A stretch of DNA of 64,000 nucleotides, from NCBI RefSeq assembly GCF_024347615.1, contig NZ_AP025509.1, positions 992,001 through 1,056,000 of the forward strand. Reading direction: 5' to 3'. Each line of letters opens with the position of its first letter. The first letter of the stretch is position 1. This stretch comes from Vibrio splendidus. GTDB lineage: Bacteria > Pseudomonadota > Gammaproteobacteria > Enterobacterales > Vibrionaceae. Shown here in pieces: positions 5,493-53,150 of the stretch. The translations under genes were made by a program, and so were the position numbers. Below the pieces are notes generated by a model, which was given only the letters and a program-made list of their open reading frames with translations, was not told the origin of the DNA and made no database searches.

Positions 5493-5930
5493 ATGAAATC
5501 ACTGAAAAAGTCGCTTTGTGTATTAACTGCTTCAGCTCTACTCGTTACCGCTCCGTTTGTGAGTGCTTCATCACCACAACAACCGCCACAACCCGCAGTG
5601 AGCCCACTGCAAATGGTTATTGCTTCTTTAAACCTAAGCGAAGAGCAACACGCGGAAGTCATCTCCCTTGTTGAAGGCTACCAATCTGATAGAACACAGA
5701 TTGACATGGATAGCGCGATCGAGCTCAAGAAGAAACAGATCAGCCTTGTGACTCAACCTGATTTCAATGAAGCCGAGATGGAAAAGATCATCGACACCGT
5801 TCAAGCAACCGAGAAGTCGATGGTGATGCAAGAGATGCGTCTCAAGAACAACATTTATAATGTGTTAACTGAAGAGCAGAAAGAGCAGTTCAAAACCATG
5901 ATGAAGTCTGCGCTCTCTGGTGGAAAGTAG
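5493..5930 (+). CDS. Spy/CpxP-like periplasmic protein (LTxxQ motif)
   Basis: A 145-residue protein with a clear signal peptide: basic MKSLKKS start, hydrophobic core, and a likely cut near VSASS at about residue 26. The mature part is all-helical. It has two LTxxQ-type motifs, LNLSEEQHAEV near residue 50 and VLTEEQKEQF near 125, which define the Spy/CpxP family of periplasmic chaperones and envelope-stress modulators. The ATG has a GGAG site 8 nt upstream. Whether Cpx controls it is not clear: only single GTAAA-like half-sites are visible upstream. The last codons (SGGK-stop) begin a 15-nt tandem repeat that runs on after the stop. Confidence 0.8.
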   Translation: MKSLKKSLCVLTASALLVTAPFVSASSPQQPPQPAVSPLQMVIASLNLSEEQHAEVISLVEGYQSDRTQIDMDSAIELKKKQISLVTQPDFNEAEMEKIIDTVQATEKSMVMQEMRLKNNIYNVLTEEQKEQFKTMMKSALSGGK

Positions 5931-6005
5931 TCTGGTGGAAAGTAGTCTGGTGGAAAATAGTCTGGTAGAAAGTAGTCTGGCAATAAATCGTCTGGTAGAA
6001 AATAG
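5916..6005 (+). repeat. 15-nt tandem repeat (6 copies) spanning the spy-like stop codon
   Basis: Six adjacent 15-nt units occupy 5916-6005 with no gaps. The first is TCTGGTGGAAAGTAG, which encodes SGGK and the TAG stop. Copy 2 is identical, copies 3, 4 and 6 differ at one or two positions, and copy 5 (TCTGGCAATAAATCG) has drifted most. Because 15 is a multiple of three, five of the six copies restate the same in-frame stop codon. Confidence 0.97.
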
Positions 6006-6072
6006 CTGCCCCTAATCCTGATATTGATTCACTCCCATCTCCCCCAGAAAAGGGAGAATCTGAATAGACAAC

Positions 6073-6109
6073 AAAAAGCCGCAGTCATTATGATAACTGC
6101 GGCTTTTTT
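6073..6109. terminator. Bidirectional terminator between spy-like gene and MATE gene
   Basis: The stem AGCCGCAGT/ACTGCGGCT has a loop of about 10 nt, with A and T runs on both sides. It can end transcripts of both convergent genes. Confidence 0.9.
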
Positions 6110-6132
6110 GTGTTCAGTACACCATTAGCAAA

Positions 6133-7485
6133 TCACGTATAAGCATGATTCGACAAATCCGGAGACTTGCTGTTCTTTTGAATGACACGCATCAATTGGA
6201 TAAGCAGCAGAATACCTGTCACGCCCAAACCAACGCCGATTCCACCCCAGATCCCTGCCAATTCAAATTTTGGCATCAAATACCAAGCGGCAGGTAAGCC
6301 AAATACCCAGTAACCGATAGCAGTCATCACGGTTGGCATAGAGACAATCTTCATGCCTCTTAGCAGGTTAATCGCCAGTAACTGCCAAGCATCAACAATA
6401 AAGCACAGAGCGACGACCCAGATAACAGAAGCCAACAGTGAAGTCATCGCACCCGTGCCATCGTCCAGCTTGAAGATAGACGCGATCATTTCGGGCCATA
6501 TGATGAACACGGCAGACAAAGCAACGCTCAACACCGACACCAAGATAAAGCTGAGAATCGAGGTTCTTTTGATACCTTCGTAGTTTCCCGCACCGAAATC
6601 ACGCCCCACCAAAATCGCCGCAGCTTGTGAGAAACCGAAATTGAAGTTCCAGGTGAAGCTTAAGCATTGCAGCAGGATTTGGTGTAAGGCTAACGAAGCA
6701 ATACTGATCGTGCCCGCCATCAAGGTGCCACCGTAAATAAGGCCATGTTCAAGTAATGCTGCTAATCCGATAGGTAAACCCATCATTAAAAGCGGACTCA
6801 TCAACTTAATTGAATACTCATCTGTGTTTAACCAAGGGGCGAACTGCTTGAATTCGTCACGTTTGAATACCCAAACCGTGTATCCAACCATCACGATAAA
6901 TGCCGCGATAGCCGTACCTAGCCCTAACCCCGTTAAGCCCATGTCTAATTGGAAGGTTAAGAAGTAGCTGACTGGCACATTCAGAATTACGGTGATAATA
7001 GACATCACAAGAATGGAGCGCACATTGCCAAACGCGCTGGTTAAGCCACGAAGCACCAATAAGATCAGCGAAGGTAACATCACCCACTTCAAAGCATGGA
7101 CATATTCCATGGCTAAAGTGATCACTTCTGGCGGCTGTTTGGCGGCTTCCAATACCAACGGAGCAAACCAGAAGCTGGCCATTAAGGTCACACTGAGCAC
7201 GAATGCCAACATAGTTGCGCCTTTCACAGCCAATCTAATTTGAGTGTTACCAAACTCAGGGCGAGCTACGCGCTGACCATAAGCAATCGCAATCAAGTTG
7301 GCGACACAACCCACAGTGCTGCTCGCAATAATGAAGATGAAAAAGTAGATAGAGGCGCCTAAGCCACCAGCCGCAAGGGCTGACACACTGATACGCGACA
7401 TCATCCAAACATCGGTAAGGACTAACGCCATAGAGATCAGCTGTGAAATGATCAAAGGGAATGCAAGAGTAAGTATTTTTTTCAT
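6133..7485 (-). CDS. MATE-family efflux transporter (NorM-like)
   Basis: A 450-residue integral membrane protein with about 12 hydrophobic segments in two homologous MatE halves. It starts directly in helix 1 (ILTLAFPLIISQLISMALVLTDVWMMSRI), the typical MATE opening. FGFSQAAAILVGRDFGAGNYEGIKR in the second half is the conserved MATE cytoplasmic-loop pattern. The family exports drugs and metabolites in exchange for Na+ or H+, and Na+ is likely in a marine Vibrio. It is divergent from a LysR regulator that starts about 100 bp away, so local regulation is plausible. The substrate is unknown. Confidence 0.88.
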   Translation of the reverse strand: MKKILTLAFPLIISQLISMALVLTDVWMMSRISVSALAAGGLGASIYFFIFIIASSTVGCVANLIAIAYGQRVARPEFGNTQIRLAVKGATMLAFVLSVTLMASFWFAPLVLEAAKQPPEVITLAMEYVHALKWVMLPSLILLVLRGLTSAFGNVRSILVMSIITVILNVPVSYFLTFQLDMGLTGLGLGTAIAAFIVMVGYTVWVFKRDEFKQFAPWLNTDEYSIKLMSPLLMMGLPIGLAALLEHGLIYGGTLMAGTISIASLALHQILLQCLSFTWNFNFGFSQAAAILVGRDFGAGNYEGIKRTSILSFILVSVLSVALSAVFIIWPEMIASIFKLDDGTGAMTSLLASVIWVVALCFIVDAWQLLAINLLRGMKIVSMPTVMTAIGYWVFGLPAAWYLMPKFELAGIWGGIGVGLGVTGILLLIQLMRVIQKNSKSPDLSNHAYT

Positions 7486-7585
7486 GAGCGCCTCAGTTAA
7501 TTCCGCCCAAAATACGATCGAAGAGGCTGGCGTTCAATTGATAAATTTGAGACTCTAGCATTCCATAAACTCATGCGAACGAATT

Positions 7586-8557: not shown

Positions 8558-8690
8558 GGGATCGGTGCCTCATTTTTTAAAACTGCATTAACCTTATAAT
8601 TTATAACGTTTATTTATCGATTCGAATGACCTATCTTACGCCCTATGAACCAGTACACAGATATTGGCATCTTATTCTTAGGAGAAAGTC

Positions 8691-9812: not shown

Positions 9813-9864
9813 ACATTTGGCTCGTAAAAACGCGCCAGTTGCAAAACGACTCGTTTACACAACA

Positions 9865-9892
9865 ATAAGCCGCAGCAAATGCTGCGGCTTAT
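9865..9892. terminator. Terminator between the monooxygenase and amylase genes
   Basis: A 12-bp perfect stem ATAAGCCGCAGC/GCTGCGGCTTAT with a 4-nt loop lies between two convergent genes. T tracts are weak on both sides. Confidence 0.75.
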
Positions 9893-9930
9893 GCTTTCTA
9901 CCCGTTATGTTTCACTTTGTTGAGCAAACA

Positions 9931-17137: not shown

Positions 17138-19267
17138 TTAGAACTGATAATTCAGATCCAAAGTGTAAGAACGTCCTGGGGCTGGATAACGACCAACCGG
17201 GCTGGTATCAATACCGCGGAAGTAATAGTCCTCATCAAACAAGTTGTTCACCGCAAGGTTCATTCGCAGCTTACTGTTTTCATCCTTGTACAAATCCGAA
17301 CCTAGGTTAAAGTTCCAGACCATGTAGGCAGGCACTTTACCTGTCGCGCCCGTTGCATCTTCGGCACTTGTATTCGCATTGTCAGAGTAAGACTCGCTGA
17401 AGTAGTAACCAGACAAAGTCGTATCTACCTTGCTAAAGGCGTAAGTCGCATCCCAGCTAAATTGGTGTTTGGACGTGTAAGGGAGTTGATTACCTTTGTT
17501 TGCACCCTCTTCCTCTAACGTTGCATCTAAGTAGTTATAGCCAGCGCCCAAACTCAAAGCTTGCATCGCTTGAGGAATATAACGACCAGAGAGCTCAACA
17601 CCTTGGTGAAGGGTTTTACCAATGTTATCGAAAGTTTGGGTAGCACTTTGCCATTGCAGCTGATCTTCAAAATCAATGCGGTAAAGTGCAATGTTAAAGC
17701 TGGTTGAATCTTGGTTGTAGCGAGCACCCAACTCGTAGTTCCATGCGAGCTCACTGCCCTCTTCACCCTTGCCTCGAATGTAAGCAATTTGTGGTGCACG
17801 CAGAGATTTCTGTGCATTAGTGTAACCAACCCATTGCTCTGTCAGGTGGTATGCCACGGTTAAGCCCGGCAACCACTCCGTCACTTTGTTGTCTGTGCTC
17901 TGTGCTGTACCCAGATCATCAAACGTCATATCAATCGATTCGTAACGAATACCCGGCGTGACTTTCAGTACGTCATTGAACAGGCCGATTTCATTGCTGA
18001 TGTAACCAGCAAAAGCGTCAGTATCTAAGTGCCAATCACGTGGGGTTGTTGTAGCACCACCAGCAATTGGCGTTTGAGTCAGCTTGTAATCGATATCTTC
18101 GTTGACGTAGCGTGCCCCAACAATCACATTTTGCGTTACGGTATTTCCGTCAAAGTACATCGCGAGTTTAGGTTCAACACCATAAACAGCAAATTCACGT
18201 GGTGACGTACGAATATCGGTTGATGGTAATGCCGGGTCCGCCCAGTGACCGCCAGCGCTGTTAAAGCCCCATTGGAAGAAACGCTCAGAACGGTGGCCAA
18301 ACGTCAGTATTTCTAATTCGGCGCTATCTGCAATATTCAAGTCATGTAAATATTTCAGACTCCAACGCGTTGAAGTGCCTTGATATTCATCGTATGGACG
18401 CTTCGACTGAGTACGATCTTTGTCATAATCATCTGGCGATAAAGCACCGGGCATTTGGGTGTCGGCATCATAGCGTTGAACGAAAGCTTGTAGCTCTTGA
18501 GTATCACTCAGTAACCATTGCAGTTTCGCTTGGAAGTTTTTGACATCTGTGTCGGAGTGTTCACGGAAGCTTTCACCTTTTAAGAAATTCCCCTCGACTT
18601 GAAGTGCCAGCGTATCGGTTAACCAACCACCCGTTCGCAGGTAAAAGTCGTTGAGCGGCGTATCGCCATCCTCGAATACAGTAAAGCGATTACTGATTTC
18701 CGTTTGCCACTCATGTGGAATAGGCTTGGTCACCAAATTGATCACACCACCGACGTTGTTTGGTCCATACTGAACCGCAGCACCGCCTCGCACAATATCA
18801 ATACGATCAAGCATCGACAGCGTTGCAGGGAAAATTGATTGTCCTGTGTGACCATACGGCGCCAGTGTCAGAGGAACACCATCCATTAGGAATTGAGCGT
18901 GCCCACTGCGACTCGCTTTCAAACCACGCACTGAGATGTTAGGTAAAACACCGGTGCCCGTTTCGTCTTGAACCTTAATGCCCGGCACACTTTGGAAGGC
19001 AGAGTCAATCGAGAGTGCGCCAGTCTTTTTAATTTGTTCATTAGTCAGAACAGTACGAGCTCCCGGATACTCTTTCACATCCTCAAGTTCTGAATTACCG
19101 ATCAAGCTGCCCGTCACGACAACCGTTTCCATGGTCGTCGTTTGTGGATCTGACGCGGCAAATGCGCCCATGGAAGTCACTGAAGCGATGGCCATTGCAA
19201 GGGCACTTAGACGCAACTTTTGATGTGATTGAGTACAGGGTTTACCATCCAAATTCTGGTAAGGCAT
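17138..19267 (-). CDS. pvuA: TonB-dependent ferric-vibrioferrin receptor
   Basis: A 709-residue outer-membrane receptor. It has a long n-region then a signal sequence (LSALAMAIASVTSMGAFA). A TonB-box-like METVVVTGS is near residue 46. The plug domain has NISVRGLKASRSGHAQFLMDGVPLTLAPYG and IDIVRGGAAVQYGPNNVGGVINLVTKPI. The beta-barrel ends in a C-terminal aromatic residue (YTLDLNYQF), as outer-membrane proteins require. It resembles FecA-type receptors. It is second in the leftward operon. GGAG lies 6 nt before the ATG. Its identity as PvuA rather than PsuA is inferred from gene order. Confidence 0.9.
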   Translation of the reverse strand: MPYQNLDGKPCTQSHQKLRLSALAMAIASVTSMGAFAASDPQTTTMETVVVTGSLIGNSELEDVKEYPGARTVLTNEQIKKTGALSIDSAFQSVPGIKVQDETGTGVLPNISVRGLKASRSGHAQFLMDGVPLTLAPYGHTGQSIFPATLSMLDRIDIVRGGAAVQYGPNNVGGVINLVTKPIPHEWQTEISNRFTVFEDGDTPLNDFYLRTGGWLTDTLALQVEGNFLKGESFREHSDTDVKNFQAKLQWLLSDTQELQAFVQRYDADTQMPGALSPDDYDKDRTQSKRPYDEYQGTSTRWSLKYLHDLNIADSAELEILTFGHRSERFFQWGFNSAGGHWADPALPSTDIRTSPREFAVYGVEPKLAMYFDGNTVTQNVIVGARYVNEDIDYKLTQTPIAGGATTTPRDWHLDTDAFAGYISNEIGLFNDVLKVTPGIRYESIDMTFDDLGTAQSTDNKVTEWLPGLTVAYHLTEQWVGYTNAQKSLRAPQIAYIRGKGEEGSELAWNYELGARYNQDSTSFNIALYRIDFEDQLQWQSATQTFDNIGKTLHQGVELSGRYIPQAMQALSLGAGYNYLDATLEEEGANKGNQLPYTSKHQFSWDATYAFSKVDTTLSGYYFSESYSDNANTSAEDATGATGKVPAYMVWNFNLGSDLYKDENSKLRMNLAVNNLFDEDYYFRGIDTSPVGRYPAPGRSYTLDLNYQF

Positions 19268-19388: not shown

Positions 19389-19460
19389 CAATCGTTTTTA
19401 GGGTCGAACTAGCTCTTAGAAATGAACGAACTCTTAGAACTGAATTAGCTTTTAAAACTG
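19389..19460 (-). repeat. 18-nt tandem repeat spanning the psuA stop codon
   Basis: Four contiguous 18-nt units lie at 19443-19460, 19425-19442, 19407-19424 and a more drifted 19389-19406. On the minus strand the first begins CAGTTTTAA, encoding the terminal Gln-Phe and the stop. The second restates CAGTTCTAA, and the third CATTTCTAA, in the same frame. Confidence 0.92.
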
Positions 19461-21488
19461 ATAGCCGTAGCTGAGCATAAATTCGGCTGGTGCTCCGTAA
19501 CCAATCTGATTAGTACCAGACGTGCCGTTGGTTGCGCCCAGAATGTATTTCTCATTAAGCACGTTGTAAGCATTCGCTTGAACTTTGTGACGACCCGTGG
19601 TGTACGCTGCCATCAAGTCAACCGTGGTGTAGTCACCCAGAGCTACCGCTTCATCATTACCCGCGTAACGGTCGCCTACGTATTTCACGCCACCACCTAA
19701 ACGCCAGTTGTCATCTAACTGATAAGTGCTCCAAAGAGAGAACAAATGATCAGACACATCGTTTGGCTTTTTGCCTGTCTCTTTGTTCTCCGCGTCTAAA
19801 TAGCTGTAGCCTACAGAAATGTCCCACTGCTCGGTAAACTGACCGCGAGCTTCTAATTCAATACCTTGGTGACGAGCTTCGATCTTGTTAACAACGTCGC
19901 CGTCTATATTCGTTTCTGGTTGCTCTTGATCAATTTGGAAGACCGCAGCATTCAGCATCAAAGCGTTATCTAATAGGTAAGCTTTTGCGCCAATTTCTTT
20001 TAGATCGGTGTGGAAGAATTCTGCTAATTTAGGGTTGATGTAGATACCTGAGTAAGGCAATTGCCATGAACGAGCTAAGCTTGCGTACACTGACATATCG
20101 TTGTTGATTCGGTAGACCAAACCACCGCGGTAGCTCACTTTGTCATCGTCTAGATTCTCTTTTGCTGAGCCCGCTTTTTGCTGTTCAAGCTCCATCGAGT
20201 CGTAACGCACATTGCCGATCACTGAAAGATCACCAAAGGTGTAAACGTCTTGAATGTAGACACCTGTCGTCGTTGTCGTGTTATCACGGAAAGGTTTGAA
20301 ACCCGGATCAGGTGTTGGGCCTGCTACAGGGTTGTAGATATCTTTTGGAGGTAAGGTTTTATCACTTGCGAGCGTTAAGTCGATATTGATCTGATTATAA
20401 TCCGCACCGATCATCATTTGGTTCGAATCGGTTTCCCAAACTAGCTCAGATTGAAGAGTCGTCGTGGTACGAGGATCGTAACCGAAGTTATTTACAGTCT
20501 GAGATACTTCATTCCCAGTTACCGTCCCTTGGCGTGTACCCTTTTGCTCAAGCTCGATATGGTTGTATGCTGCGCGGTTTGTCCATGCCCATTCACTGTT
20601 CAAAAGCCATTCATAATTAACGCCAACACGGATGCTGTCTGACTCTTGATAGTCATTCGTGCCACCGTAAAATGTGCTTTCAGAGACATCGACAGGCTTA
20701 CCATTTTTAGATGGAACACCACGATATGGCACTAGCTCTTGGTGCGCATATTCTACATCGAGATCAATGGTATGCCCCTCAGCAGGCAATACACGAATGG
20801 TGGGTGCGATAAAGAAATCATTAGAGTCGACGTGATCTACATAGGAATCAGACTGTCGACTTTCCACGTTGATACGACCACTAACCTTGTCACTAAGCGC
20901 CATCGAGCTGTCAACCTGACCAACAAAAAGATTATTGCTGCCAACACTGCCATTGACGTGTGTGAAATTATCACCGTTAGCGCGCTTGGTGACCAAGTTG
21001 ATGATACCGCCCGCAGAACCTCGGCCGTAAAGTGCGCCTGCAGGGCCCTTTACCACTTCGACACGTTCGATATTCGCTAGGCTTCGGTACGATTGCAGAG
21101 TCCCGTCATCACGCATACCATCACGGTACATGTCGTTGAGCGCATCAAAACCACGAATCACAAATTGGTCTCGGCTTCCCTCACCCAAGGTATTGTTAAC
21201 CCCTGCAACACCATCAAGTGCATCCACCAAACGTACAGCACCGCGGTCTTCCATTTCCGTCTTTGTGACCACCGATACTGCCTGCGGTACATCCAACCAT
21301 TCGACATCCGTTTTGGTACCCGACTGCGGCATGTGCTCCGCGTAACCTTCGTACTGATGACCAATAACTTGTAGAGTTTCATCCACCGTTACTTCTTCTG
21401 CAGCCATTACATTCGACACGGTAGCCACTACGGTTAATGCACCTCCAATAGCCAAAGCGAGAGGGGACAAGGCCAATCTAATGTTCAT
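19452..21488 (-). CDS. psuA: TonB-dependent siderophore receptor of the vibrioferrin locus
   Basis: A 678-residue outer-membrane receptor. Signal peptide to about residue 29 (VSNVMAAEE), then VDETLQVIGHQY near the TonB-box position. The plug has VPQAVSVVTKTEMEDRGAVRLVDALDGVAGV and FVIRGFDALNDMYRDGMRDDG, then IERVEVVKGPAGALYGRGSAGGIINLVTKRA, typical of the catecholate/ferrichrome-type receptors. The barrel ends MLSYGYQF. In V. parahaemolyticus psuA sits first in the pvu operon next to pvuA, as here. It is divergent from pvsA across about 240 bp holding Fur-like boxes. Its stop codon lies inside a tandem repeat. Confidence 0.9.
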   Translation of the reverse strand: MNIRLALSPLALAIGGALTVVATVSNVMAAEEVTVDETLQVIGHQYEGYAEHMPQSGTKTDVEWLDVPQAVSVVTKTEMEDRGAVRLVDALDGVAGVNNTLGEGSRDQFVIRGFDALNDMYRDGMRDDGTLQSYRSLANIERVEVVKGPAGALYGRGSAGGIINLVTKRANGDNFTHVNGSVGSNNLFVGQVDSSMALSDKVSGRINVESRQSDSYVDHVDSNDFFIAPTIRVLPAEGHTIDLDVEYAHQELVPYRGVPSKNGKPVDVSESTFYGGTNDYQESDSIRVGVNYEWLLNSEWAWTNRAAYNHIELEQKGTRQGTVTGNEVSQTVNNFGYDPRTTTTLQSELVWETDSNQMMIGADYNQINIDLTLASDKTLPPKDIYNPVAGPTPDPGFKPFRDNTTTTTGVYIQDVYTFGDLSVIGNVRYDSMELEQQKAGSAKENLDDDKVSYRGGLVYRINNDMSVYASLARSWQLPYSGIYINPKLAEFFHTDLKEIGAKAYLLDNALMLNAAVFQIDQEQPETNIDGDVVNKIEARHQGIELEARGQFTEQWDISVGYSYLDAENKETGKKPNDVSDHLFSLWSTYQLDDNWRLGGGVKYVGDRYAGNDEAVALGDYTTVDLMAAYTTGRHKVQANAYNVLNEKYILGATNGTSGTNQIGYGAPAEFMLSYGYQF

Positions 21489-30298: not shown

Positions 30299-30348
30299 AA
30301 CCGTCAACAATTCAAAACAACGGCGGATTAAAACATCAGCAATTAGTA
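30299..30348 (-). repeat. Degenerate 16-17-nt repeat spanning the oxidoreductase stop codon
   Basis: Three adjacent units on the plus strand start at 30299 (AACCGTCAACAATTCAA), 30316 (AACAACGGCGGATTAA) and 30332 (AACATCAGCAATTAGTA). The last holds the gene's stop (TTA at 30343-30345). They are more diverged than the other repeats of this kind in the window. Confidence 0.5.
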
Positions 30349-36067: not shown

Positions 36068-36171
36068 TGCCGGATTTGGTGATAACGGCTATAACCGGAT
36101 GTTTAGCGCTAACGGATGTCCATCACTAACGAAAGAGCAGGCATCCCACTGGCAGTATTCACTTAGAACAG

Positions 36172-39731: not shown

Positions 39732-41741
39732 TTAACCTTCGCTGCGCTCTGGACGACGACCGCGGTTGCCGCCATTGCCAGCTGCTGCGTTGCCATGGCC
39801 ACGTTCGCCACGGTGGTTACCACGGTGATCACCACCACGGTTACGGTCAAAGCGACGTTCGCCATCACGACCACCAGCAGAGTTACCATCACGTGCGCCG
39901 TCACGGTTACCACGGTAGCCACCACGACCGCCATTGCCACCTTCACGGTTACCACCTTCGCGATTACCGCCTTCACGGTTACCACGGTAGCCGCCGCCAT
40001 CACGACCGCCACGGTTGCCATCACGACCGCCACGGTTGCCATCACGACCGCCGCCGCCACGACGAGGCTCACGGAAGTCGTTGAAATCAACAACTACAGC
40101 GCCAGCTTCTTTTTGACGAATGCGAAGTTTGCTTAGCTTACCAGCAGTTTCAGAGTTCATTGCTTTTGGCAGTTGAACGTAAGTAGAACCTTGGTCTAGC
40201 TTGATAGCACCGATAGAACCTTTAGTTAGGCCTAGTTCGTTTGCTAGTGCGCCAACGATGTCTTTAACCTGAACGCCTTGCTCACGGCCAACTTGTAATT
40301 GGTACGTATCCCAATCTTGAGTATTGAAGTTACGACCACCACCGTCACGGCCATTGTCACGATCTTCACGACGCTCTTTGCGACGGTTCTTATCACGCTC
40401 AATAGCAGCGATCATTGGGTCTTCGCCAACGTAGAATAGTGGGCTCTTACCTTGCTGACGCTTAAGAAGCATTGCAGCTAGAGTAGCAGCATCAACTTCT
40501 AGAGATTCTTGTAGTGTAGAGATTAAACCTGCGAAGTTTTCTAGAGCTTTGCTCTCTTTCTCAGTTTCAAGCTCAGCACCAAGCTTAGCAACACGTGCAG
40601 CAGCAACTTCGTCACGTTGTGGAAGTTGGATTTCTTCCATTTGAGACTTAGTTACACGCTCGATTGTGCGAAGCATACGGATTTGGTTAGTGCGAACTAG
40701 TAGGATCGCTTTACCTTTACGTCCAGCACGGCCAGTACGGCCAATACGGTGGATGTAAGATTCAACATCGAATGGGATGTCGTAGTTAAATACGTGAGTG
40801 ATACGTGGAACATCAAGACCACGTGCTACAACGTCAGTTGCAACTAGGATATCGATAACACCTTGTTTGATGTGATCAACAGTGCGCTCACGTAGAGACT
40901 GAGGAATATCACCGTGCAATGCAGCAGCTTTAAAGCCACGTGCAGATAGCCAATCAGCTAGACGCTCAGTGTCTTGACGAGTACGTACGAATACGATTGA
41001 CGCGTCAGTTTCTTCAGTTTCAAGAAGACGAGACATTGCTTCGTCTTTCTCTACGCCTTTAACAACCCAGTAATTTTGAGCTACTTTGTCAACTGTGTGG
41101 TTAGTACCAGCAACGTCAACTCTAGCCGGGTTACGTAGGTAACGGTCAACAATAGTCTTAACCATTGGAGGCATAGTTGCAGAGAAAAGTACGCGTTGTG
41201 CAGTTTCTGGAGCTTGCTCAAGAATCCAAGTAACGTCATCTACAAAGCCCATTTTCAGCATTTCATCTGCTTCATCAAGAACAAATGTATGCGCTTCATC
41301 TAGGTGTAGACGGTCACGAGTTAGTAAGTCTTTAACACGACCTGGAGTACCAACAACAATGTGAGCACCGCGGCTTAGAGCACGCATTTGGTCAACAATT
41401 GAAGCACCACCGTAGATTTCAAGAACTTTAAGACCGTTGATGTCACGACCTAAGTTTTTGATTTCCGCAGCAACTTGAATCGCTAGCTCACGAGTAGGAG
41501 CCATGATGATTGCTTGTGGTTTGTGTTGGTTCAGGTTGATTTTGTTAAGTAAAGGCAGAGAGAATGCTGCTGTTTTACCAGTACCAGTCTGTGCTTTACC
41601 TAGTGCGTCACGGCCTTCAAGAAGAAGAGGAATAGCTGCTGCTTGGATTGGAGTCGGAGAAACGAAACCCATGCTATCAAGAGCTGAAAGAATGTTATCG
41701 TTAAGGGCTAATTCATTAAATTGAATTACAGATTCGGACAT
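39732..41741 (-). CDS. deaD: DEAD-box RNA helicase DeaD/CsdA-type with RG-rich tail
   Basis: About 669 residues. The helicase core holds the Q motif near residue 8 (FNELALNDNILSALDSMGF), motif I AQTGTGKTAAF, motif Ia PTRELAIQ, motif II DEAD, motif III SAT, and motif VI HRIGRTGRAGRKG. A DbpA/CsdA-like RNA-binding domain follows (about residues 475-550, VQVKDIVGALANELGLTKGSIGAIKL). The last about 110 residues are an Arg-Gly-rich tail with NREGG and DGNRGG repeats. It unwinds structured RNA in ribosome assembly and mRNA decay, notably in the cold. I prefer ATG 41741 (MSESVIQF) over 41825. It is divergent from rnb across about 390 bp. Confidence 0.92.
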   Translation of the reverse strand: MSESVIQFNELALNDNILSALDSMGFVSPTPIQAAAIPLLLEGRDALGKAQTGTGKTAAFSLPLLNKINLNQHKPQAIIMAPTRELAIQVAAEIKNLGRDINGLKVLEIYGGASIVDQMRALSRGAHIVVGTPGRVKDLLTRDRLHLDEAHTFVLDEADEMLKMGFVDDVTWILEQAPETAQRVLFSATMPPMVKTIVDRYLRNPARVDVAGTNHTVDKVAQNYWVVKGVEKDEAMSRLLETEETDASIVFVRTRQDTERLADWLSARGFKAAALHGDIPQSLRERTVDHIKQGVIDILVATDVVARGLDVPRITHVFNYDIPFDVESYIHRIGRTGRAGRKGKAILLVRTNQIRMLRTIERVTKSQMEEIQLPQRDEVAAARVAKLGAELETEKESKALENFAGLISTLQESLEVDAATLAAMLLKRQQGKSPLFYVGEDPMIAAIERDKNRRKERREDRDNGRDGGGRNFNTQDWDTYQLQVGREQGVQVKDIVGALANELGLTKGSIGAIKLDQGSTYVQLPKAMNSETAGKLSKLRIRQKEAGAVVVDFNDFREPRRGGGGRDGNRGGRDGNRGGRDGGGYRGNREGGNREGGNREGGNGGRGGYRGNRDGARDGNSAGGRDGERRFDRNRGGDHRGNHRGERGHGNAAAGNGGNRGRRPERSEG

Positions 41742-42134
41742 TGGGATCCCACTATATATAAGTAAACAAAAGGTCCCGGGAGCTCTATCAATTCCAATAC
41801 TGATCCAATCAGATACTGATTCCATTCAGAGTTACGAAGCAGTAATAAAACACTTCAAGCCATTAGGGACGTCTAAGGGAGGCGGATTATTCCCTAAATG
41901 CATAAAAAAATCCAGAAAAAATTGAAATACATCACATATTTTTCGCTTTTACATCAATACTGGTTATCATATCGTCAAAACTTGATGAATATCTCGTCAC
42001 AGCACCCATCTTCTAGCAAATTGACCTAGTTATATAAGAGGGCAATTAATTAACGCTCACTTCGCCTTTAAGTAGTAATCAAGCCTCGCAATGATTATAG
42101 TGTGCTCAATTGTCCTCGATAGATAAAAGTCAAA
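41742..42134. promoter_or_regulatory. Shared divergent deaD/rnb upstream region
   Basis: About 390 bp separates the divergent deaD and rnb starts. A TTGACC followed by TATATAAG-type bases near 42020-42040 could serve rnb. The region is AT-rich and long enough for a cold-shock-type leader on deaD, as in other bacteria, but no defined cold box was identified. Confidence 0.4.
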
Positions 42135-44141
42135 ATGTTTCAAGATAATCCTCTACTCGCTCAACTCAAACAGCAAATCCAAGAAACCCTCCCTAAAAAG
42201 GAAGGTACAATCAAAGCCACTGAAAAAGGGTTTGGTTTTCTCGAAGTCGATAACAAGACCAGTTTCTTTATCCCACCGCCATACATGAAGAAATGTGTGC
42301 ACGGTGACAAAGTTATTGCCATCATTCGCACCGAGAAAGATCGCGAAGTAGCAGAGCCTGAGGAATTGATCGAACAGGGTCTTACTCGTTTTATTGCTCG
42401 AGTGAAGTTGTTTAAAGGTCGTTTGAACGTAGTTCCTGATCACCCGCAACTGAAAAAGCTGCAACTTAAAGCGAAAGCAAAGAAGGGTCTAAACCCTGAA
42501 ACGCTAAAAGAAGGTGACTGGGTTGTTGCTCATATCGTTCAACACCCGTTAAAAGGTGACAACGGATTCTTGGCTCAAATCTCTGAAAAAATCACAGATG
42601 CTGACGACAAGATCGCACCTTGGTGGGTAACGCTGGCACAAAACGACCTACCAAACAGCGAACCTGAAGGCATTGACGACTGGCAGATCAAAGACGACGC
42701 TGATCTTGAACGTATCGACATGACACACGTCCCTTTTGTGACCATTGATGGTGAAAGCACAAAAGATATGGATGATGCGCTTTACGCGAAGAAGAAAGAG
42801 AACGGTGATTTTGAACTGACTATCGCGATTGCAGATCCTACCGCTTACATCTCTCCAGATGATGTGATGGATAAAGTGGCTCGTGAGCGCGGTTTCACTA
42901 TTTACCTGCCTGGCCGTAACATTCCTATGTTACCTCGTGATCTAGCTGACAACTTATGTTCACTAATAGAGAACGAAGTTCGCCCGGCACTTTGCTGCAC
43001 AGTAACAGTATCTAAAGAAGGTGTTATCGGTGATGACATTAACTTCTTCGCTGCGAACATCAAATCTCACGCTCGTCTTGCTTACGACCACGTATCAGAC
43101 TGGCTAGAAACCGGTGCATCAGACAAATGGCAACCATCAGAAGAGATCGCTGCGATTGTTTCTGACCTTCACCAATTTGCACAAGCACGTTCAGCATGGC
43201 GCTCAACAAACGCTGTAGTGTTCCCAGATCGCCCTGACTACCGCTTTGAACTAAGCGAAGACAACGATGTTGTCGCTATCCACGCAGACATGCGTCGCAC
43301 TGCAAACAAGTTGGTTGAAGAGTCTATGATCAGCGCGAACATCTGTGCAGGTCGAGTATTAAAAGAGAGCTTCAACCAAGGTGTCTTTAACTGTCACTCT
43401 GGTTTTAAAGCTGAGAAATTAACAGACGTTCTAGAGCTGGTTAACCCAGAAGCAGAAACACCATTTACAGAAGAGCAGATCGTTTCTCTGGAAGGTTTTG
43501 CTACTCTGCGTCGTTGGTTAGGCTCTCTAGACAACAGCTACTACGACAACCGTATTCGTAAATTCCAAGCGTACAGCGAGATCAGCAATGAACCTGCGCC
43601 ACACTACGCGATGGGGTTAGACATTTACGCAACGTGGACTTCTCCAATTCGTAAATACGGCGACATGATTAACCACCGTATGCTTAAAGCACACATCTTA
43701 GGTAAAGCGCCAATTCAAACACCAGACGAAACTATTGGTGATGAACTTGCCCTGCACCGCCGTCACCACGGTATGGCTGAGCGCAATGTTGGCGATTGGT
43801 TGTACGCTCGTACTCTAGCAAACGCTCCTGTAGAAGAGACTCGCTTCCAAGCAGAGATCTTCGACATTAACCGTGCTGGTATGCGTGTGCGTCTGCTTGA
43901 GAATGGTGCAGCTGCATTTATCCCTGGTTCTCTCATTATTGATAATAAAGAGAGAATAGAGTGCAACGGTGATATGGGTACTGTATCTATCGATAAAGAA
44001 ATGGTATACAAACTGGGAGACGTTTTAGAAGTAGTTCTCTTCGAAGTTAATCAGGAAAACCGTAACTTAGTAGCAAAACCTACTCAAGTATTTGCGGACT
44101 TGCCTAGCGAGCCTGAAACGACAAACGAAACCGAAGCTTAA
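42135..44141 (+). CDS. rnb: Exoribonuclease II
   Basis: A 668-residue 3'-5' exoribonuclease. An N-terminal cold-shock OB domain ([37 protein letters not shown]) is followed by a second OB domain. The RNB catalytic domain begins near residue 190 ([20 protein letters not shown]), whose Asp cluster binds Mg2+. [20 protein letters not shown] near 500 is the conserved RNB C-terminal motif. An S1 domain closes the protein. It degrades unstructured RNA hydrolytically to short oligomers. It matches RNase II rather than RNase R in length. The ribosome-binding site is weak. Degenerate repeats begin at its stop codon. Confidence 0.95.
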
Positions 44142-44226
44142 GAACTTTAACGGGTACGGCTTTCAAGGTCAAAGCTTGCAAGGTTAGAGCTTTCAAGGTC
44201 AAAAGCTTCAAAGGTTCACTTCTAAA
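44136..44226 (+). repeat. Degenerate 15-nt repeat after the rnb stop codon
   Basis: Adjacent units of 14-16 nt run from the stop to the terminator: GCTTAAGAACTTTAA (44136-44150), CGGGTACGGCTTTCAA (to 44166), GGTCAAAGCTTGCAA (to 44181), GGTTAGAGCTTTCAA (to 44196), GGTCAAAAGCTTCAAA (to 44212) and a last partial one. The consensus is GGTYARAGCTTTCAA. The first unit contains the TAA stop (44139-44141). Confidence 0.85.
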
Positions 44227-45656: not shown

Positions 45657-45912
45657 CTTAGGACTCAACGATCATTTTAGCGAACAAGTGCAAACAAAAT
45701 ACCCGCCCTGCTCCCAGAAACGAATCCTTCTTCAGTAAACACATTCTAAAAGGGTAAAGCCGTCTAAATTTCATTAACCAGTGCCATTTTGGCAGCCAGA
45801 CTGTCTTTCACTCACCAGATTAACTGCTATAACGTATCCGTATAGAATTTCACAAAAGTGTCATATAACCGACCTATCATAGCCAACAAATGTTATTAAC
45901 TAGGAGTTGTTT

Positions 45913-46728
45913 ATGTTACGAGTCGCGCTTGCCTCTCTTTTATCCTTAGCCCTGTCTTCTCAAGCTGCTTTAGCACAAGAAACCACTATTTCGGGCTCCA
46001 CTTCAGTATCACGAGTGATGGATGTATTAGCTGAGGAGTACAACAAGACTCACCCTGATAACTATATTGCGGTTCAGGGCATCGGTTCTACAGCGGGTAT
46101 TACCATGGTTAACAAAGGTGTCTCTGATATCGGTATGAGCTCGCGTTATTTAACCGACCGCGAACAGGACGAGAAGTTGAAGGTGTTTCCAATTGCCTTT
46201 GACGGCCTAGCTGTCGTAACTAACCGCTCGAACGCTGTAAGCAACGTTACACGTGAGCAGCTGTTCGATATCTACAAAGGCAAAATTACGAACTGGAAAG
46301 CCGTGGGTGGTGCGGATCAGCCTATCGCAGTTGTAACTCGCGAAGCGTCTTCTGGTTCACGCTATAGCTTCGAAAGCTTGCTTGGTTTAACGAAAATCAT
46401 TAATGACCGTCTAGTGTCTGACATCAACCCAAATAACCTGGTTGTAAGCAGCAACAGCATGGTTAAAACGATTGTTAACCATAACCCACACGCGATTGGA
46501 TTTATCTCTGTTGGTTCTATCGACCGTTCGATTAAGGCCATTACCTTTGAAGGCGTAGAGCCAACATCTAAGAACATTGCTAACCACAGCTATGAATTGG
46601 CTCGCCCATTCTTGTTGCTACACAAAACTGAATCAGTTTCTGACGAGAGCAAAGATTTCATCAAGTTCGTGAAGTCAAAGCAAGGGCAAGATCTTATCGA
46701 AGAGTACGGCTACACACGTATTAAGTAG
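45913..46728 (+). CDS. PstS-like periplasmic phosphate-binding protein
   Basis: A 271-residue protein with a signal peptide (LASLLSLALSSQAALAQE, cut after LA at about residue 21). The PBP-like fold has TTISGSTSVSRVMDVLAEEYNKTHP near the start, with the SGSTSV phosphate loop, then VSDIGMSSRYLTDRE, FDGLAVVTNRSN, IVGKITNW-like IYKGKITNWKAVGG, and VTREASSGSRYSFESLLG with the RxxSSGSR loop. It binds phosphate for uptake or sensing. No pstCAB genes adjoin, so it is an orphan. TAGGAG lies 7 nt before the ATG. A weak TGTCAT-type Pho-box half-site is near 45858. Its stop lies in a 19-nt tandem repeat. Confidence 0.88.
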   Translation: MLRVALASLLSLALSSQAALAQETTISGSTSVSRVMDVLAEEYNKTHPDNYIAVQGIGSTAGITMVNKGVSDIGMSSRYLTDREQDEKLKVFPIAFDGLAVVTNRSNAVSNVTREQLFDIYKGKITNWKAVGGADQPIAVVTREASSGSRYSFESLLGLTKIINDRLVSDINPNNLVVSSNSMVKTIVNHNPHAIGFISVGSIDRSIKAITFEGVEPTSKNIANHSYELARPFLLLHKTESVSDESKDFIKFVKSKQGQDLIEEYGYTRIK

Positions 46729-46825
46729 CTTACTGCGTCTAAACTAACTAACCGCGTATTAATTAGCAAAACACGCATTAAGTAATTACACACGTACTAA
46801 ATAGCGACATACACATTAAGTCAGC
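46712..46825 (+). repeat. 19-nt tandem repeat (6 copies) spanning the pstS-like stop codon
   Basis: Six units exactly 19 nt apart start at 46712, 46731, 46750, 46769, 46788 and 46807. Unit 1 is ACACACGTATTAAGTAGCT and includes the last codons and the TAG. Others include AACCGCGTATTAATTAGCA, AAACACGCATTAAGTAATT and ACACACGTACTAAATAGCG. Units differ at several positions but the register never slips. 19 is not a multiple of three. Confidence 0.93.
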
Positions 46826-47887: not shown

Positions 47888-47912
47888 AAGGCTTAGCGTA
47901 ATGCTAAGCCTT
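47888..47912 (-). terminator. Terminator of the RND operon
   Basis: AAGGCTTAGC pairs with GCTAAGCCTT around a 5-nt loop, followed on the minus strand by six T residues. It is about 70 nt beyond the pump stop, after the repeat tract. Confidence 0.88.
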
Positions 47913-47920
47913 AGTTTTTA

Positions 47921-47984
47921 CAAGGATTTAAACCTGCAAGGGATTAGCCTTGCAAGGCGTTAATCTGACCGGAGTTAAGTCTCC
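47921..47984 (-). repeat. 16-nt tandem repeat after the RND pump stop codon
   Basis: Four exact-length units on the plus strand: CAAGGATTTAAACCTG (47921), CAAGGGATTAGCCTTG (47937), CAAGGCGTTAATCTGA (47953) and CCGGAGTTAAGTCTCC (47969). The tract touches the stop codon (47984-47986). Every unit keeps a central TTA. Confidence 0.8.
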
Positions 47985-50900
47985 TATTCGTCATCAAGTG
48001 GAATCAACTTAGTCGTGCCACCGTGTGCCTTCTCACGCTTACGTTGCACGAATGCATAGAAGCCTGGGATTAGGAACGTACCCGCTAACAACACACATAG
48101 CAGACCGCCGATCAGTGAAATACCCAACGAGTTCTGGCTCACGTGACCTGCGCCCGCTGCAAAGATAAGCGGGAAGATACCTAAGATGAACGACCAAGAG
48201 GTCATGTTCACAGCACGGAAACGCAGCGTACCGCCCTTCACTGCCGCATCTTCAATTGATGCGTCTTTCTCTTCACGCTCCACTTTTGCGAACTCTACAA
48301 TCAAGATTGCGTTCTTCGCGGCCAAGGCTATCAAGAGAACCAAACCAATTTGCGCATAGAGGTTCAACGGTGTGCCTGTTAGATTCAACGCTAAGAAGGA
48401 GCCTAAGGTTGCAACCGGTACCACTAAGATAATCGCTATCGGTATTGTCCAACTCTCGTATTGAGCCACCATAAACAGGTAGATGAAGATCAGAGCCAGT
48501 GCAAAAGCAAAGATCGCTTGGTTGCCTGCCAATACTTCTTGGTAGGCCATGCCTGTCCATTCGTACTGATAACCCTGAGGTAAGACTTCAGCGGCTACAC
48601 GTTCCATTGCAGCAATCGCATCACCACTTGAGTAACCCGGCGCTGGTTGGCCTTGAATCACTGCACTGCGGTACATGTTGTAACGCCATGCGACATCTGG
48701 TTCGAAGATCTGGTCGTAAGTCACCAATGTACTGAGCGGGATCATCTCGCCATTAGACGAGCGCACGTGGAATCGTTGGAGATCATCCATGCTGCTACGG
48801 TGTTCACTGTCAGCTTGCATGGTCACGCGGAAGTTCTTACCAAACATGGTGAAATCGTTCACGTACAGAGAACCTAGGTTACCTTGTAGTGTTTGGAAGA
48901 TTTCCGACAACGGAATACCAAGTTGCTGCGCTTTCTCACGGTCGATATCGACATAGTAGTGAGGAACGTTGGCACGGAAAGTACTGAACGTATGTGAAAT
49001 CTCAGGCTGTTTGTTCGCCTCAGCAATCACGTCATTCATTACCATCGCCAGATCAGTACGACTACGACCTAATGTATCTTCTAGAACAAATTCGAAACCA
49101 GAAGCAGCACCCATACCCGGAACTGCTGGAGGTCCCATTGCAAACACAATAGCTTGAGGCAGTTCTGTGGCCGCTCGACCATTAATACGTTGTGAGATAG
49201 CTTGTGCGGAATGTTGACCATCCAGTGCGTTACGCATATCCCAATCATGCAGTTTGATAAATAGCGACGCGCCATTCGAAGCAGAAGCGCCTGTCATGAA
49301 TGCGTAGCCGTTTACCAGTGTCACACCATCAACACCCGGCTCTTGCTCAACCATCTCTAGCAACTGCTCAGTCACATCTTCTGTACGAGACAGTGATGCC
49401 GCATCAGGAAGCTGGACGTTAACCAACAAAATACCTTTATCTTCTTGAGGTACAAACGCCGTTGACGTCGTTTTCGCGAAGTAAGTAACCGCTGCTAGTG
49501 CCACAACAAAGAAGGTAAACAGCAGAACACCTTTTTTCACAAGGAAGCCCGCGATTTGGCCGTATTTGTTAGTAACAGACTCTAAGCCACGGTTGAACGC
49601 TTGGTACCAACGAGCTGTGTTGCCACCGCCCTGCTTTAGAACCAGTGAACACAATGCTGGTGACAGCGTTAGAGCATTAATAGAAGAGATAACAACAGCG
49701 ATACAAATAGTCAGAGCAAACTGACGATACATGATGCCAGTAATACCCGGCAACATCGCCACAGGGATAAACACGGCAAGAAGTACCAGTGTTGATGTAA
49801 CGATAGGACCCGTTACTTCTTTCATCGCGATCAGTGTTGCTTTACGCGGTGAAATCGTTGGGTCTTTGGCCATCGTCGTATCGACGTTTTCGATAACCAA
49901 GATCGCATCATCTACCACGATACCAATCGCCAATATCAAACCAAACAGGGTTACCGTGTTGATGGTAAATCCTGTCATCTGCATGACGGCAAAGGTACCA
50001 ATCAACGACACCGGAATCGCAACCACAGGAATCAAGGTTGCACGCGCACTACCTAAGAACAGGTACGTCACCGCAATAACCAGCAAGATAGCTTCGATTA
50101 GCGTTTTCACTACGCCCTTAATCGACTCTGCAACAAAGACTGTGGTGTCATAACTCGCCTCGTAAGCAACACCTTCAGGGAAGTTAGTACTTAGATTGTC
50201 GAGCATCGCCATGACCGCTTTACCACTTTCCAACGCGTTTGCGTCTGACTGAAGTGACAGCGTTACGATTGAAGCGTCTTGTCCTCGGTATTTACCATTG
50301 CCATCGTAGAATTTTTTACCTAACTCAACGCGTGCAATGTCTTTTAAGTAAACGGTGGAACCATCTTGATTTGCACGAAGTACAACATTTTCAAACTCAT
50401 CAGCCGTTTCTAAGCGGCCTTTTGTCACCAAGTTGAACTGTACTTCTTGTGGATTGGCGTATGGTGCGGCACCAATACGACCGGCAGCGACTTGAACATT
50501 TTGTTCAGCCAATGCGCCATACACATCAGATGTTGTTAAGTTCAGGTTAGCCATTTTCTCTGGGTCTAACCAAACGCGCATCGAATACTCACCGCCGCCC
50601 AACACGTTTACTTCACTAATACCCGACACACGTGCCAGTTGGTCTTTAATGTTTAAGTTTACGTAGTTGATCAGGAACTGGTCGTCATACTCACCATTTG
50701 GAGAGTAAAAGTTCAATACCATCAAAAGGTCAGGTGAACGTTTCTTAACCGTTACGCCAACCATTCTAACTTCTTGTGGAAGCTTCGATTCGATTTGGGC
50801 GACTCGGTTCTGAACGTTGACCTGAGCCATATCAGCATCAGTACCGACATCAAAGGTCACATTAAGGCTGTATGAACCGTCGTTAGCACTTTTAGAAGAC

Positions 50901-51136
50901 ATGTAGATCATATCTTCTACGCCATTCACCGACGTCTCTATGGGGTCAGCTATCGCCTGTTCCACCACTTCAGCACTGGCACCCGTGTAGAATGCCGATA
51001 CACTGACCGATGGTGGGCTAATTTTTGGATATTCTGCCACTGGTAAGATAGCGAGAGAGATCGCACCCGCCAGCGTTAATATTATGGATATGACAAGGGC
51101 AAACTTAGGCCTTTGAATAAAGAAACGACTTAACAT
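47984..51136 (-). CDS. RND efflux pump inner-membrane transporter (AcrB/HAE1 type)
   Basis: A 1050-residue proton-driven pump. It starts in helix 1 ([42 protein letters not shown]). The proton-relay acids are in [20 protein letters not shown] near residue 408, and the matching Lys is in [17 protein letters not shown] near 945. Two large periplasmic porter domains lie between helices 1-2 and 7-8. It is the last gene of a two-gene operon, following its membrane-fusion protein by 11 nt. It should export drugs, bile salts or similar amphiphiles through a TolC-type channel encoded elsewhere. No TetR repressor gene adjoins, so local control is not evident. Confidence 0.95.
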
Positions 51137-51147
51137 AAATAGCCCCC

Positions 51148-52284: not shown

Positions 52285-52543
52285 GGTTATACCGTCACTT
52301 ATTAGTATTTGAACAGCATAAAATTTACGTAACACACTCGTCACCATTGTCCGAGGAATATCAATTATAACTAGCCAAAGTGTATCAATATGTTAATTGA
52401 AACCAAGTGCTTATAAAGTATTTACAAACGCGTTACAATTCCTAAGTAAATCAACCTCTCAGCTTTTGTTCTCTATGGATATTGTCTAACATAATGTATG
52501 GTCAGACAGATAAGCATTCACATTTAATTGTTAAGGAATTCTC

Positions 52544-52987
52544 ATGATTTCAAAATGGGCTAAGCGTTTCTATCAAATGGCGGAATTGGTCGGTTCTTGG
52601 AGTAAAGATCCTTCAACTCAAGTCGGCGCCGTAATCACTAAGCACAACCGTATTGTTTCCGTTGGTTTTAATGGCTACCCACATGGCGTGTCTGATAGTG
52701 CGGATACTGATGACAGAGAAATGAAGTACCTCAAGACGCTTCACGCTGAAGAAAATGCAATCTTGTTTGCTAAACGTGATTTAGACAGTTGTGAAGTTTG
52801 GGTAACTCACTTCCCTTGTCCGAACTGTGCAGCAAAAATCATCCAAACTGGGATTTCAGCGGTACATTGCCCAGAGCAAAGTGAAGACTTCCTTTCTCGT
52901 TGGGGAGATAAGATCAAGATAAGCCAAGATATGTTTGAGCAAGCAGGTGTGGAAGTAGACTGGTTACCACTCGCTGACCTGAACTAA
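52544..52987 (+). CDS. dCMP/cytidine deaminase family zinc enzyme
   Basis: A 147-residue member of the dCMP-deaminase group (ComEB/T4 type). Zinc ligands are in LKTLHAEENAILFA (His and catalytic Glu, near residue 67) and HFPCPNCAAKII (two Cys, near 88). GAVITKHNRIVSVGFNGYPHGVSD is the preceding substrate-binding strand. It should convert dCMP to dUMP for thymidylate synthesis. In proteobacteria that use dCTP deaminase this would be an additional route. An AAGGA site lies 6-7 nt before the ATG. Confidence 0.88.
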   Translation: MISKWAKRFYQMAELVGSWSKDPSTQVGAVITKHNRIVSVGFNGYPHGVSDSADTDDREMKYLKTLHAEENAILFAKRDLDSCEVWVTHFPCPNCAAKIIQTGISAVHCPEQSEDFLSRWGDKIKISQDMFEQAGVEVDWLPLADLN

Positions 52988-53012
52988 TATCGAAGCCGAA
53001 TTTCAGATTTAG

Positions 53013-53048
53013 AAAAGCCGAGAGTCGATCTTATCGCTCTCGGCTTTC
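53013..53048 (+). terminator. Terminator of the dCMP deaminase gene
   Basis: AAAGCCGAGAG pairs with CTCTCGGCTTT around a loop of about 12 nt, followed by CTTTTA. Confidence 0.85.
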
Positions 53049-53099
53049 TTTTACTTTCAGAGCCTTACGTTTCGTAACATGAAATGCGTAAACAACATA

Positions 53100-53150
53100 A
53101 AGCGTTAGTTAGGATTAAGCGTTAATTGGGGTCAAACGCTAGTTGGAAAG
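53100..53150 (-). repeat. 17-nt tandem repeat spanning the MscS-type stop codon
   Basis: Three units, each exactly 17 nt, on the plus strand: AAGCGTTAGTTAGGATT (53100), AAGCGTTAATTGGGGTC (53117) and AAACGCTAGTTGGAAAG (53134). The gene's TGA (53132-53134) lies across the junction of units two and three. A fourth, very diverged unit may precede 53100. Confidence 0.82.

Follow-up and report, generated by a model that had tools for sequence, protein, structure and literature searches.

Degenerate short tandem repeats are enriched at gene ends and differ between genomes of the Vibrio splendidus clade

Several unrelated genes in a 64,000-nt stretch of Vibrio splendidus DNA (the window) end in adjacent, degenerate copies of a short unit, which raises the question of what process leaves repeats of different sequence at the ends of different genes. 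The original prediction described such arrays at six genes and a weaker seventh, all with units of 15–19 nt that begin at the stop codon and run to the terminator, and proposed a common process rather than one dispersed repeat. The six arrays are present, although that of the RND pump is weak; they are given here with one weaker repeat.

5916..6005, plus strand: array of spy (Spy/LTXXQ family; CDS 5493-5930), 15 nt in six copies over the last codons and the stop; TRF; score 51
19406..19461, minus strand: array of a TonB-dependent receptor gene (CDS 19452-21488), 18 nt in about three copies over the stop; TRF; score 22
36096..36131, no strand assigned: weak 17-nt repeat in the convergent spacer between 35501-36067 (plus) and 36172-37221 (minus); score 11, under threshold
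44145..44216, plus strand: array of rnb (RNB-domain gene; CDS 42135-44141), 15 nt, after the stop and ending just before the terminator; TRF; score 22
46717..46819, plus strand: array of a PBP/pstS-like gene (CDS 45907-46728), 19 nt in six copies over the stop; score 26
47921..47962, minus strand: array of an RND pump gene (AcrB-type; CDS 47984-51136), degenerate 16 nt between stop and terminator, starting 21 nt past the stop; score 12, weak alone
53097..53146, minus strand: array of an MscS-type gene (CDS 53132-53974), 17 nt in about three copies over the stop; score 17

The TonB-dependent receptor gene is taken to be the psuA of the original prediction. The proposed seventh array, at an MDR oxidoreductase gene (30343-31368), scores 7, which is chance level. 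The shared geometry is looser than described: the rnb and RND arrays start at +3 and +21 rather than at the stop, and the spy, pstS-like and MscS arrays end 74, 72 and 52 nt short of the called terminator. A weak repeat related to that at 36096..36131 occurs in two relatives (G011 and G006).

The repeats are genuine and lie far above chance. With an array defined by a score of at least 14, every region counted once and genes called as the longest open frames of 80 codons or more (‘intergenic’ DNA may therefore include small genes and RNA genes), arrays occur in 56/189 convergent, 64/518 tandem and 11/177 divergent intergenic regions of 1.66 Mb of the source genome, a 5.88-Mb member of the Vibrio splendidus clade. 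Dinucleotide shuffles of the same regions almost never reach the threshold (0/945, 4/2590 and 3/885). Other Vibrio, represented by one genome per species and treated in the same way, bear few arrays (10/167 convergent, 10/393 tandem and 4/215 divergent regions), so that the rise is 4.9-, 4.9- and 3.3-fold; E. coli K-12 has none in 84 regions. The predicted excess of gene ends over shuffles and 5′ flanks is also borne out by a 464-kb count at the same threshold, in which one convergent-region array may count for both genes: 31/243 3′ flanks, 0/486 shuffled 3′ flanks, 4/235 5′ flanks and 3/381 coding segments. Density in the source genome falls from convergent through tandem and divergent to coding DNA. 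Coding DNA is not clearly raised in arrays (0.046/kb, against 0.009 and 0.051/kb in two sets of other Vibrio and 0.076/kb in other gammaproteobacteria), and this makes a purely global mutation rate a weaker explanation; where coding arrays do occur, the frame is preserved in 45 of 46 cases.

Unit lengths in the 1.66 Mb range from 6 to 24 nt, well beyond 15–19 nt, and are bimodal, with classes of 6–8 and 14–20 nt. They show no preference for frame (periods modulo 3 of 44/43/51). Each unit copies local sequence, which can take in the end of the CDS, and the units are specific to their genes: among 8128 pairs the mean similarity between genes is 5.19, compared with 5.28 for shuffled units. A similarity of at least 14 is reached by 19 pairs versus 7 shuffled ones, mostly pairs with a doubled 7–8 nt unit. 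A dispersed family of the REP or ERIC type is rejected on the grounds that similarity between genes does not on average exceed that of shuffled units. Together with the local origin of the units and their change between sister genomes, this supports the common process of the original prediction. In the unit columns before the stop of 34 stop-covering arrays, downstream copies are ~0.79 identical to the first copy, and the identity of later copies tends to a minimum at the third codon positions of the CDS end.

Arrays turn over between sister genomes. Copy number differs between relatives at the spy, TonB receptor, rnb, pstS-like and RND genes, although orthologs were not present in every fetched genome, and array-free and low-copy states are visible at the same gene. 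The spy array has ~5 copies in G011, 2 in G005 and none in G017, the only relatives giving an ortholog in the fetched stretches. The TonB receptor unit is common to G006, G045 and G017, with arrays of different length. Compared with the source genome, the rnb array is extended in V. splendidus L074 (score 32) and reduced in G017 and G006, and it is missing from G011, G026 and G023; it also occurs in G045, and its length varies across G017, G006, G045 and V. splendidus. Among seven relatives, the pstS-like gene lacks an array in G006, G045, G005, G017, G026 and G023 and carries an 8-nt array in G011; V. lentus L023 and Vibrio sp. Isolate32 L026 have other arrays there. At the site of the weak RND repeat, V. 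lentus and G011 have 17-nt arrays (scores 25 and 14). The MscS-type gene has no array at a score of at least 14 in G006, G045, G005, G017, G011 or G026, and a different, 7-nt-type array lies further on in G023. G026 has no array at this score in any of 36 3′ flanks, a sister-genome count in which a convergent-region array may likewise count twice.

The clade set, as assigned within this analysis, comprised six named loci (98% RND identity) and G005, G006, G011, G017, G026 and G045 (93–97% identity at the pstS-like protein); the other Vibrio included G009 and G030 (87 and 86%) as well as L029, which is uncultured (95% RND), and G023 (88%) was placed in neither group for region counts. Spacers differ by at least 20 nt in 41% of 264 clade ortholog pairs at 94–97% identity and 40% of 419 pairs at 97–100%, compared with 1/39 other-Vibrio pairs at 94% or more; changes of at least 6 nt are about equally frequent (0.67–0.80 in the clade at 90–100% identity, 0.60–0.71 in other Vibrio at 90–97%), so that mainly the large differences set the clade apart, with the proviso that pairs are not independent. 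Only two genes had at least three orthologs in both groups for a gene-matched comparison of turnover, and the clade was higher in one. Six sister genomes reverse the order seen in the source genome: their window-orthologous stretches hold more arrays in tandem than in convergent regions (23/100 versus 4/60). Clade genome sets may overlap and these stretches are orthologous, so the counts are not independent. Loss of RecJ, ExoI (Exonuc_X-T_C), SbcD or MutS was rejected as a cause, as all four are present in 13/13 Vibrio genomes searched.

These observations are best read, and probably correctly so, as short tandem duplications that arise at a high rate, or are retained, throughout the clade and become visible where selection tolerates them; the coding rates and the reversed order in sister genomes count against this reading and temper confidence in it. 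Units of ~6–24 nt would be duplicated locally in tandem, with strand slippage in DNA synthesis as the simplest route, and the Splendidus clade would gain or keep the resulting arrays several times more often than other vibrios. A duplication running from the last codons into the 3′ UTR would leave the first copy, the protein and the stop intact and would escape purging, and one that breaks a promoter, reading frame or terminator would be removed; arrays would therefore pile up after stops. Most arrays would thus be neutral, with selection acting as a filter; they would accumulate, gain and lose copies and decay through point mutation, and 3′ spacers would lengthen. The median distance from stop to terminator, with terminators called by a simple hairpin-plus-T rule that found one for 395/757 ends in the source genome, is raised (46 versus 27 nt), also at ends without an array (44 versus 26 nt); for the RND pump it is 73 nt in 13 Splendidus-clade genomes and 27 nt in 33 other Vibrio.

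Alternatively, duplication could be targeted to transcribed, ribosome-free 3′ ends, through R-loops that form behind the last ribosome, a polymerase pausing at the terminator or fork collisions there. This is unlikely, yet several gradients point that way. In the source genome, arrays are densest in the part of convergent regions that precedes the terminator (2.31/kb) and sparsest in the part of tandem regions that follows it (0.43/kb). Relative to other Vibrio, spacers are raised 8.5-fold and DNA beyond the terminator 4.2-fold, with no clear rise in coding DNA. However, sister genomes have no higher density before the terminator than after it (0.98 versus 1.13/kb), divergent regions, which lack any 3′ end, are raised as well, and a tolerance filter alone yields the same gradient. 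Replication-strand bias was also rejected: with strands assigned from GC skew in 200-kb blocks, there is no clear effect in convergent (22/163 leading, 34/163 lagging) or tandem regions (19/275 leading, 13/156 lagging).

Somewhat less likely still is an inherited change of the clade by which gene ends, including the stop, are copied into the 3′ UTR at a high rate, coupled to the ends of transcription, with copied stops partly kept by selection; were this true, 3′ UTRs would grow by duplicating the coding end. Counting against the main reading, arrays in tandem regions start within 12 nt of the stop in 21/57 cases, with 8.7 expected from a uniform placement that disregards promoters and terminators. 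Among spacer arrays 13/28 cover the stop; a model of free placement between stop and terminator, devised within this analysis, gives 9.7 ± 2.1. Since free placement fits and all three non-coding classes are raised, no special role of the stop codon is needed. Of the processes suggested in the original prediction, the repeated copying of gene ends by slippage fits best.

A further and slightly weaker candidate is selection for back-up stops, by which a duplicated gene end would supply further stops, in all three frames for unit lengths not divisible by three. Fail-safe 3′ stops such as the tandem stops of yeast (PMC1088959, in its excerpted text) likewise lie downstream of the real stop. Of the downstream triplets aligned with the stop, 61/82 are stops, where divergence elsewhere in the unit predicts 48.2 ± 4.2 or 46.7; a bootstrap over arrays places the excess between 1.7 and 27.1. 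In a like-for-like comparison the stop class is kept in 58/82 triplets (43.0 expected) and control T-N-purine triplets in 108/186 (100.0 expected), and the pstS-like array alternates TAA and TAG. This retention is only suggestive. The stop T and A (0.86 and 0.82) are no more conserved than several upstream CDS positions (up to 0.91); in downstream copies the T column alone is prominent (0.87, versus 0.75 for A, 0.70 for the third position and 0.72 for other columns); and 15/28 spacer arrays leave the stop uncovered. Here the extra stops arrive with whole duplicated units, and periods divisible by three are not preferred, overall or among stop-covering arrays (12/5/17), which agrees with the original view that reserve stops alone do not suffice, even if stop triplets are kept somewhat above expectation. 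The title of PMC6764699 states that selected fail-safe 3′ stops are without evidence in eubacteria.

That the arrays are functional 3′ UTR elements selected for repetition, acting in RNA stability, sRNA or protein binding or terminator spacing, is very improbable. The TonB receptor and rnb arrays keep their unit across several sister genomes, but no motif shared among units was found, no Rfam match reaches the gathering score in the window, and the arrays vary freely in copy number, unit and presence across genomes with 87–98% identical proteins. Chance or low complexity in AT-rich DNA, to which single weak cases such as the MDR oxidoreductase and, by itself, the RND repeat come close, is already refuted by the shuffle and taxon controls and has a negligible probability.

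With short head-to-tail units above chance and copy number that varies between relatives, the arrays fit slippage-type minisatellites or VNTRs. Bacterial VNTRs and long simple sequence repeats share these properties, including a heptamer-type class and slippage as the usual explanation (summarised in the excerpted text of PMC4679880), and VNTR-type loci serve to type V. cholerae isolates (PMC4482140, likewise excerpted). Unlike known VNTRs, those described here reach more than a quarter of the convergent regions of one genome, consist largely of degenerate 14–20 nt units and often lie at gene ends. TAACTGA, a single fixed heptamer according to the same excerpt of PMC4679880, likewise forms direct repeats between genes, and some of these overlap a stop codon; in the genome mainly studied there, most lie immediately upstream of start codons. 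The 1.66 Mb contain no exact tandem dimer of this heptamer. The tandem repeats of Borgs, archaeal extrachromosomal elements, are perfect, A-enriched and about half in ORFs according to excerpts of PMC9879509, whereas the arrays here are degenerate, chromosomal and mainly intergenic with a slight A excess (0.326, against 0.301 in non-array flanks); Borg-type identity is rejected because the copies are not perfect and A enrichment is not strong. Titles and abstract openings among the matches listed in the open-licence literature hold nothing on such gene-end arrays.

The Splendidus clade offers a natural setting in which a single kind of mutation lengthens bacterial 3′ UTRs and turns them over among sister species, and in which one gene can be seen array-free, at low copy and at high copy. 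It makes testable what determines how often a lineage produces short tandem duplications and whether the stop-to-terminator distance can drift freely, and it cautions against assuming that a species-specific 3′ UTR must be regulatory.

The window was scanned with Tandem Repeats Finder and scored for ungapped self-matches (simple +1/-1 scheme) at periods 12-22, with the following results at gene ends.

Arrays at gene 3' ends in the window
Spy/LTXXQ (spy-like) gene: unit 15 nt, score 51
TonB-receptor gene, taken as psuA: unit 18 nt, score 22
RNB-domain gene (rnb): unit 15 nt, score 22, starting at +3 from the stop
PBP/pstS-like gene: unit 19 nt, score 26
MscS-type gene: unit 17 nt, score 17
RND pump: score 12, starting at +21 from the stop
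MDR oxidoreductase: score 7

Five of the six arrays in the original prediction were thus recovered with scores of 17-51; that of the RND pump reached only 12, and the MDR oxidoreductase, with only 7, drops out as a seventh. The arrays cover the stop codon in four of the six genes, and the claim that all begin there fails for rnb and RND. Repeats of 15 and 21 nt also lie at 39929-40052 within a 697-aa ORF (39732-41825, minus strand). Segments 264-304 and 752-813 have 78-94% matches at several further places on both chromosomes and are probably a dispersed intergenic repeat.

Scanning 464 kb (period 12-24, threshold 14) confirmed the expected excess: 31/243 3' flanks scored at least 14 versus 0/486 dinucleotide shuffles of the same flanks, 4/235 5' flanks and 3/381 coding segments. 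A 1.664-Mb scan of the window's genome (5.88 Mb, two contigs) counted every 60-1500-nt intergenic region a single time, at periods 5-26; five shuffles per region gave arrays in 0/945 convergent, 4/2590 tandem and 3/885 divergent cases. Periods were bimodal, so that the proposed 15-19 nt range captures one class (14-20, peak 17) and misses a second (6-8); modulo 3 they fell into classes of 44, 43 and 51 arrays.

The window spans C2:992001-1056000 of genome G000, whose RND pump shares 98% protein identity with its V. lentus, V. tasmaniensis, V. crassostreae and V. splendidus counterparts; we assign the genome to the Splendidus clade on this basis. The three classes of intergenic region were counted across taxa.

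Intergenic regions with an array (convergent, tandem, divergent)
Window's genome, 1.664 Mb: 56/189, 64/518, 11/177
Splendidus relatives, window-orthologous stretches of six genomes: 4/60, 23/100, 1/55
Splendidus relatives, six named loci: 4/21, 8/30, 0/25
Splendidus relatives, additional set: 6/11, 1/20, 0/11
Other Vibrio, 37 named loci: 6/93, 2/198, 2/130
Other Vibrio, 5 genomes: 1/42, 4/109, 1/50
Other Vibrio, 14 further genomes: 3/32, 4/86, 1/35
Photobacterium: 3/46, 3/50, 2/44
Grimontia/Enterovibrio: 2/16, 2/35, 0/17
Aliivibrio: 0/15, 0/35, 0/9
E. coli K-12: 0/14, 0/46, 0/24
Other gammaproteobacteria: 0/22, 0/63, 1/35

The window's genome exceeds other Vibrio about 4.9-fold in convergent, 4.9-fold in tandem and 3.3-fold in divergent regions. 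Arrays are more frequent in tandem than in convergent regions of the relatives' window-orthologous stretches, the opposite of the order in the window's genome, and one of the six relatives, G026, has no score of at least 14 in 36 3' flanks. At L099, 20107-21136, Enterovibrio calviensis has a strong array of 15-nt units within a convergent spacer, which indicates that such arrays are present elsewhere in Vibrionaceae; locus L022 carries a near-perfect 7-nt array at ~18350-18480 (C1:398350-398480), in a convergent spacer and scored from both genes. Rates in coding DNA give no clear answer on a clade excess (0.046 arrays per kb in the window's genome, 0.009 and 0.051 in two other-Vibrio sets, 0.076 in other gammaproteobacteria); 45/46 coding arrays of the window's genome keep the reading frame.

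Comparison of orthologous 3' ends revealed the anticipated copy-number change. The array of the spy-like gene has six copies in the window's genome; among sister genomes of the clade, G011 has about five, G005 two and G017 none. The rnb spacer, from stop to terminator, is short and array-free in sisters G011 and G026 and in the more distant G023; arrays of varying length occur in G017 and G006 (both below the score threshold), G045 and V. splendidus L074, and that of G005 is broken. At the pstS-like gene, the window's genome carries six copies of its 19-nt unit and 6/7 relatives carry no array; 8-nt arrays occur in G011 and, separately, V. lentus, and an 18-nt array in Vibrio sp. Isolate32.

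Spacers tend to be long in the clade. Across all gene ends with a called terminator, the median is 46 nt in the window's genome and 45 nt in its clade relatives; the corresponding values are 36 nt for Photobacterium, 30 for Aliivibrio, 27 for other Vibrio and 21 for E. coli. For RND, 13 clade genomes have a median of 73 nt (minimum 26), versus 27 nt in 33 other Vibrio. Ends lacking a detected array also differ (44 versus 26 nt, window's genome versus other Vibrio), as expected if old arrays decay. Among clade ortholog pairs, spacer length differed by at least 20 nt in 41% of the 264 with 94-97% protein identity and in 40% of the 419 with 97-100%; for other-Vibrio pairs the figures were 1/39 at 94-100%, 14% of 138 at 90-94% and 9% of 485 at 80-90%, the pairs being non-independent. 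For differences of at least 6 nt the two groups had similar frequencies, apart from pairs of the highest identity. Gene matching left two usable genes, with mean differences of 14.7 (clade) and 8.5 (other Vibrio) for RND and 20.1 and 26.2 for gene 52544-52987.

A mobile or dispersed repeat family is rejected, in line with the original argument against one dispersed repeat, because units of different genes are on average no more alike than shuffled units. The simplest event we can infer behind the arrays is slippage with later changes in copy number: slippage would create a tandem duplication, copy number would then change, the first copy would stay under coding constraint, and old arrays would decay. 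Within the CDS end, later copies tend to agree least with the first copy at third codon positions, matching such constraint. Replication strand had no clear effect on arrays. RecJ, ExoI, SbcD and MutS were found in 13/13 genomes tested, so that losing one of these four does not account for the high rate. SbcD (G000 C1:1807775-1808557) scores ~231-239 bits in seven Splendidus genomes, G023 and G036, and 183-202 bits in G007, G033, G039 and G050, a split that may reflect two lineages of the protein within Vibrio; its type does not track array load, the higher-scoring kind occurring in array-free G036 (0/37 3' flanks) and G026 (0/36). The MutS match at G017:C1:522652-524862 spans only model positions 1-729 of 840, in an open frame of 783 aa.

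Among arrays of period at least 9 between stop and called terminator, 13/28 cover the stop; free placement, with duplication anywhere that spares CDS and terminator, predicts 9.7 +- 2.1. In tandem regions 21/57 arrays have their start no more than 12 nt from the stop, versus 8.7 expected under uniform placement, an expectation that takes no account of promoters or terminators. Array density before and after the terminator is 1.71 and 0.93 per kb in the window's genome and 0.98 and 1.13 per kb in clade relatives. On this evidence the apparent anchoring at the stop seems largely to reflect which sites tolerate a duplication. Stop-aligned downstream triplets are stops in 61/82 cases, where two estimates from divergence across the unit's other positions predict 48.2 or 46.7 (excess 1.7 to 27.1, bootstrap over arrays); control triplets elsewhere in the unit gave 108/186 versus 100.0 expected, and column identities do not distinguish the stop from the codons preceding it.

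Among the matches listed from open-licence literature, none concerns such arrays, judged by title and start of abstract. Of the known systems compared, Borg repeats (PMC9879509) come closest in behaviour, and TAACTGA repeats (PMC4679880) are a fixed-unit counterpart. The Splendidus-clade arrays belong to the bacterial VNTRs; what is unusual is their scale within one clade and their location.
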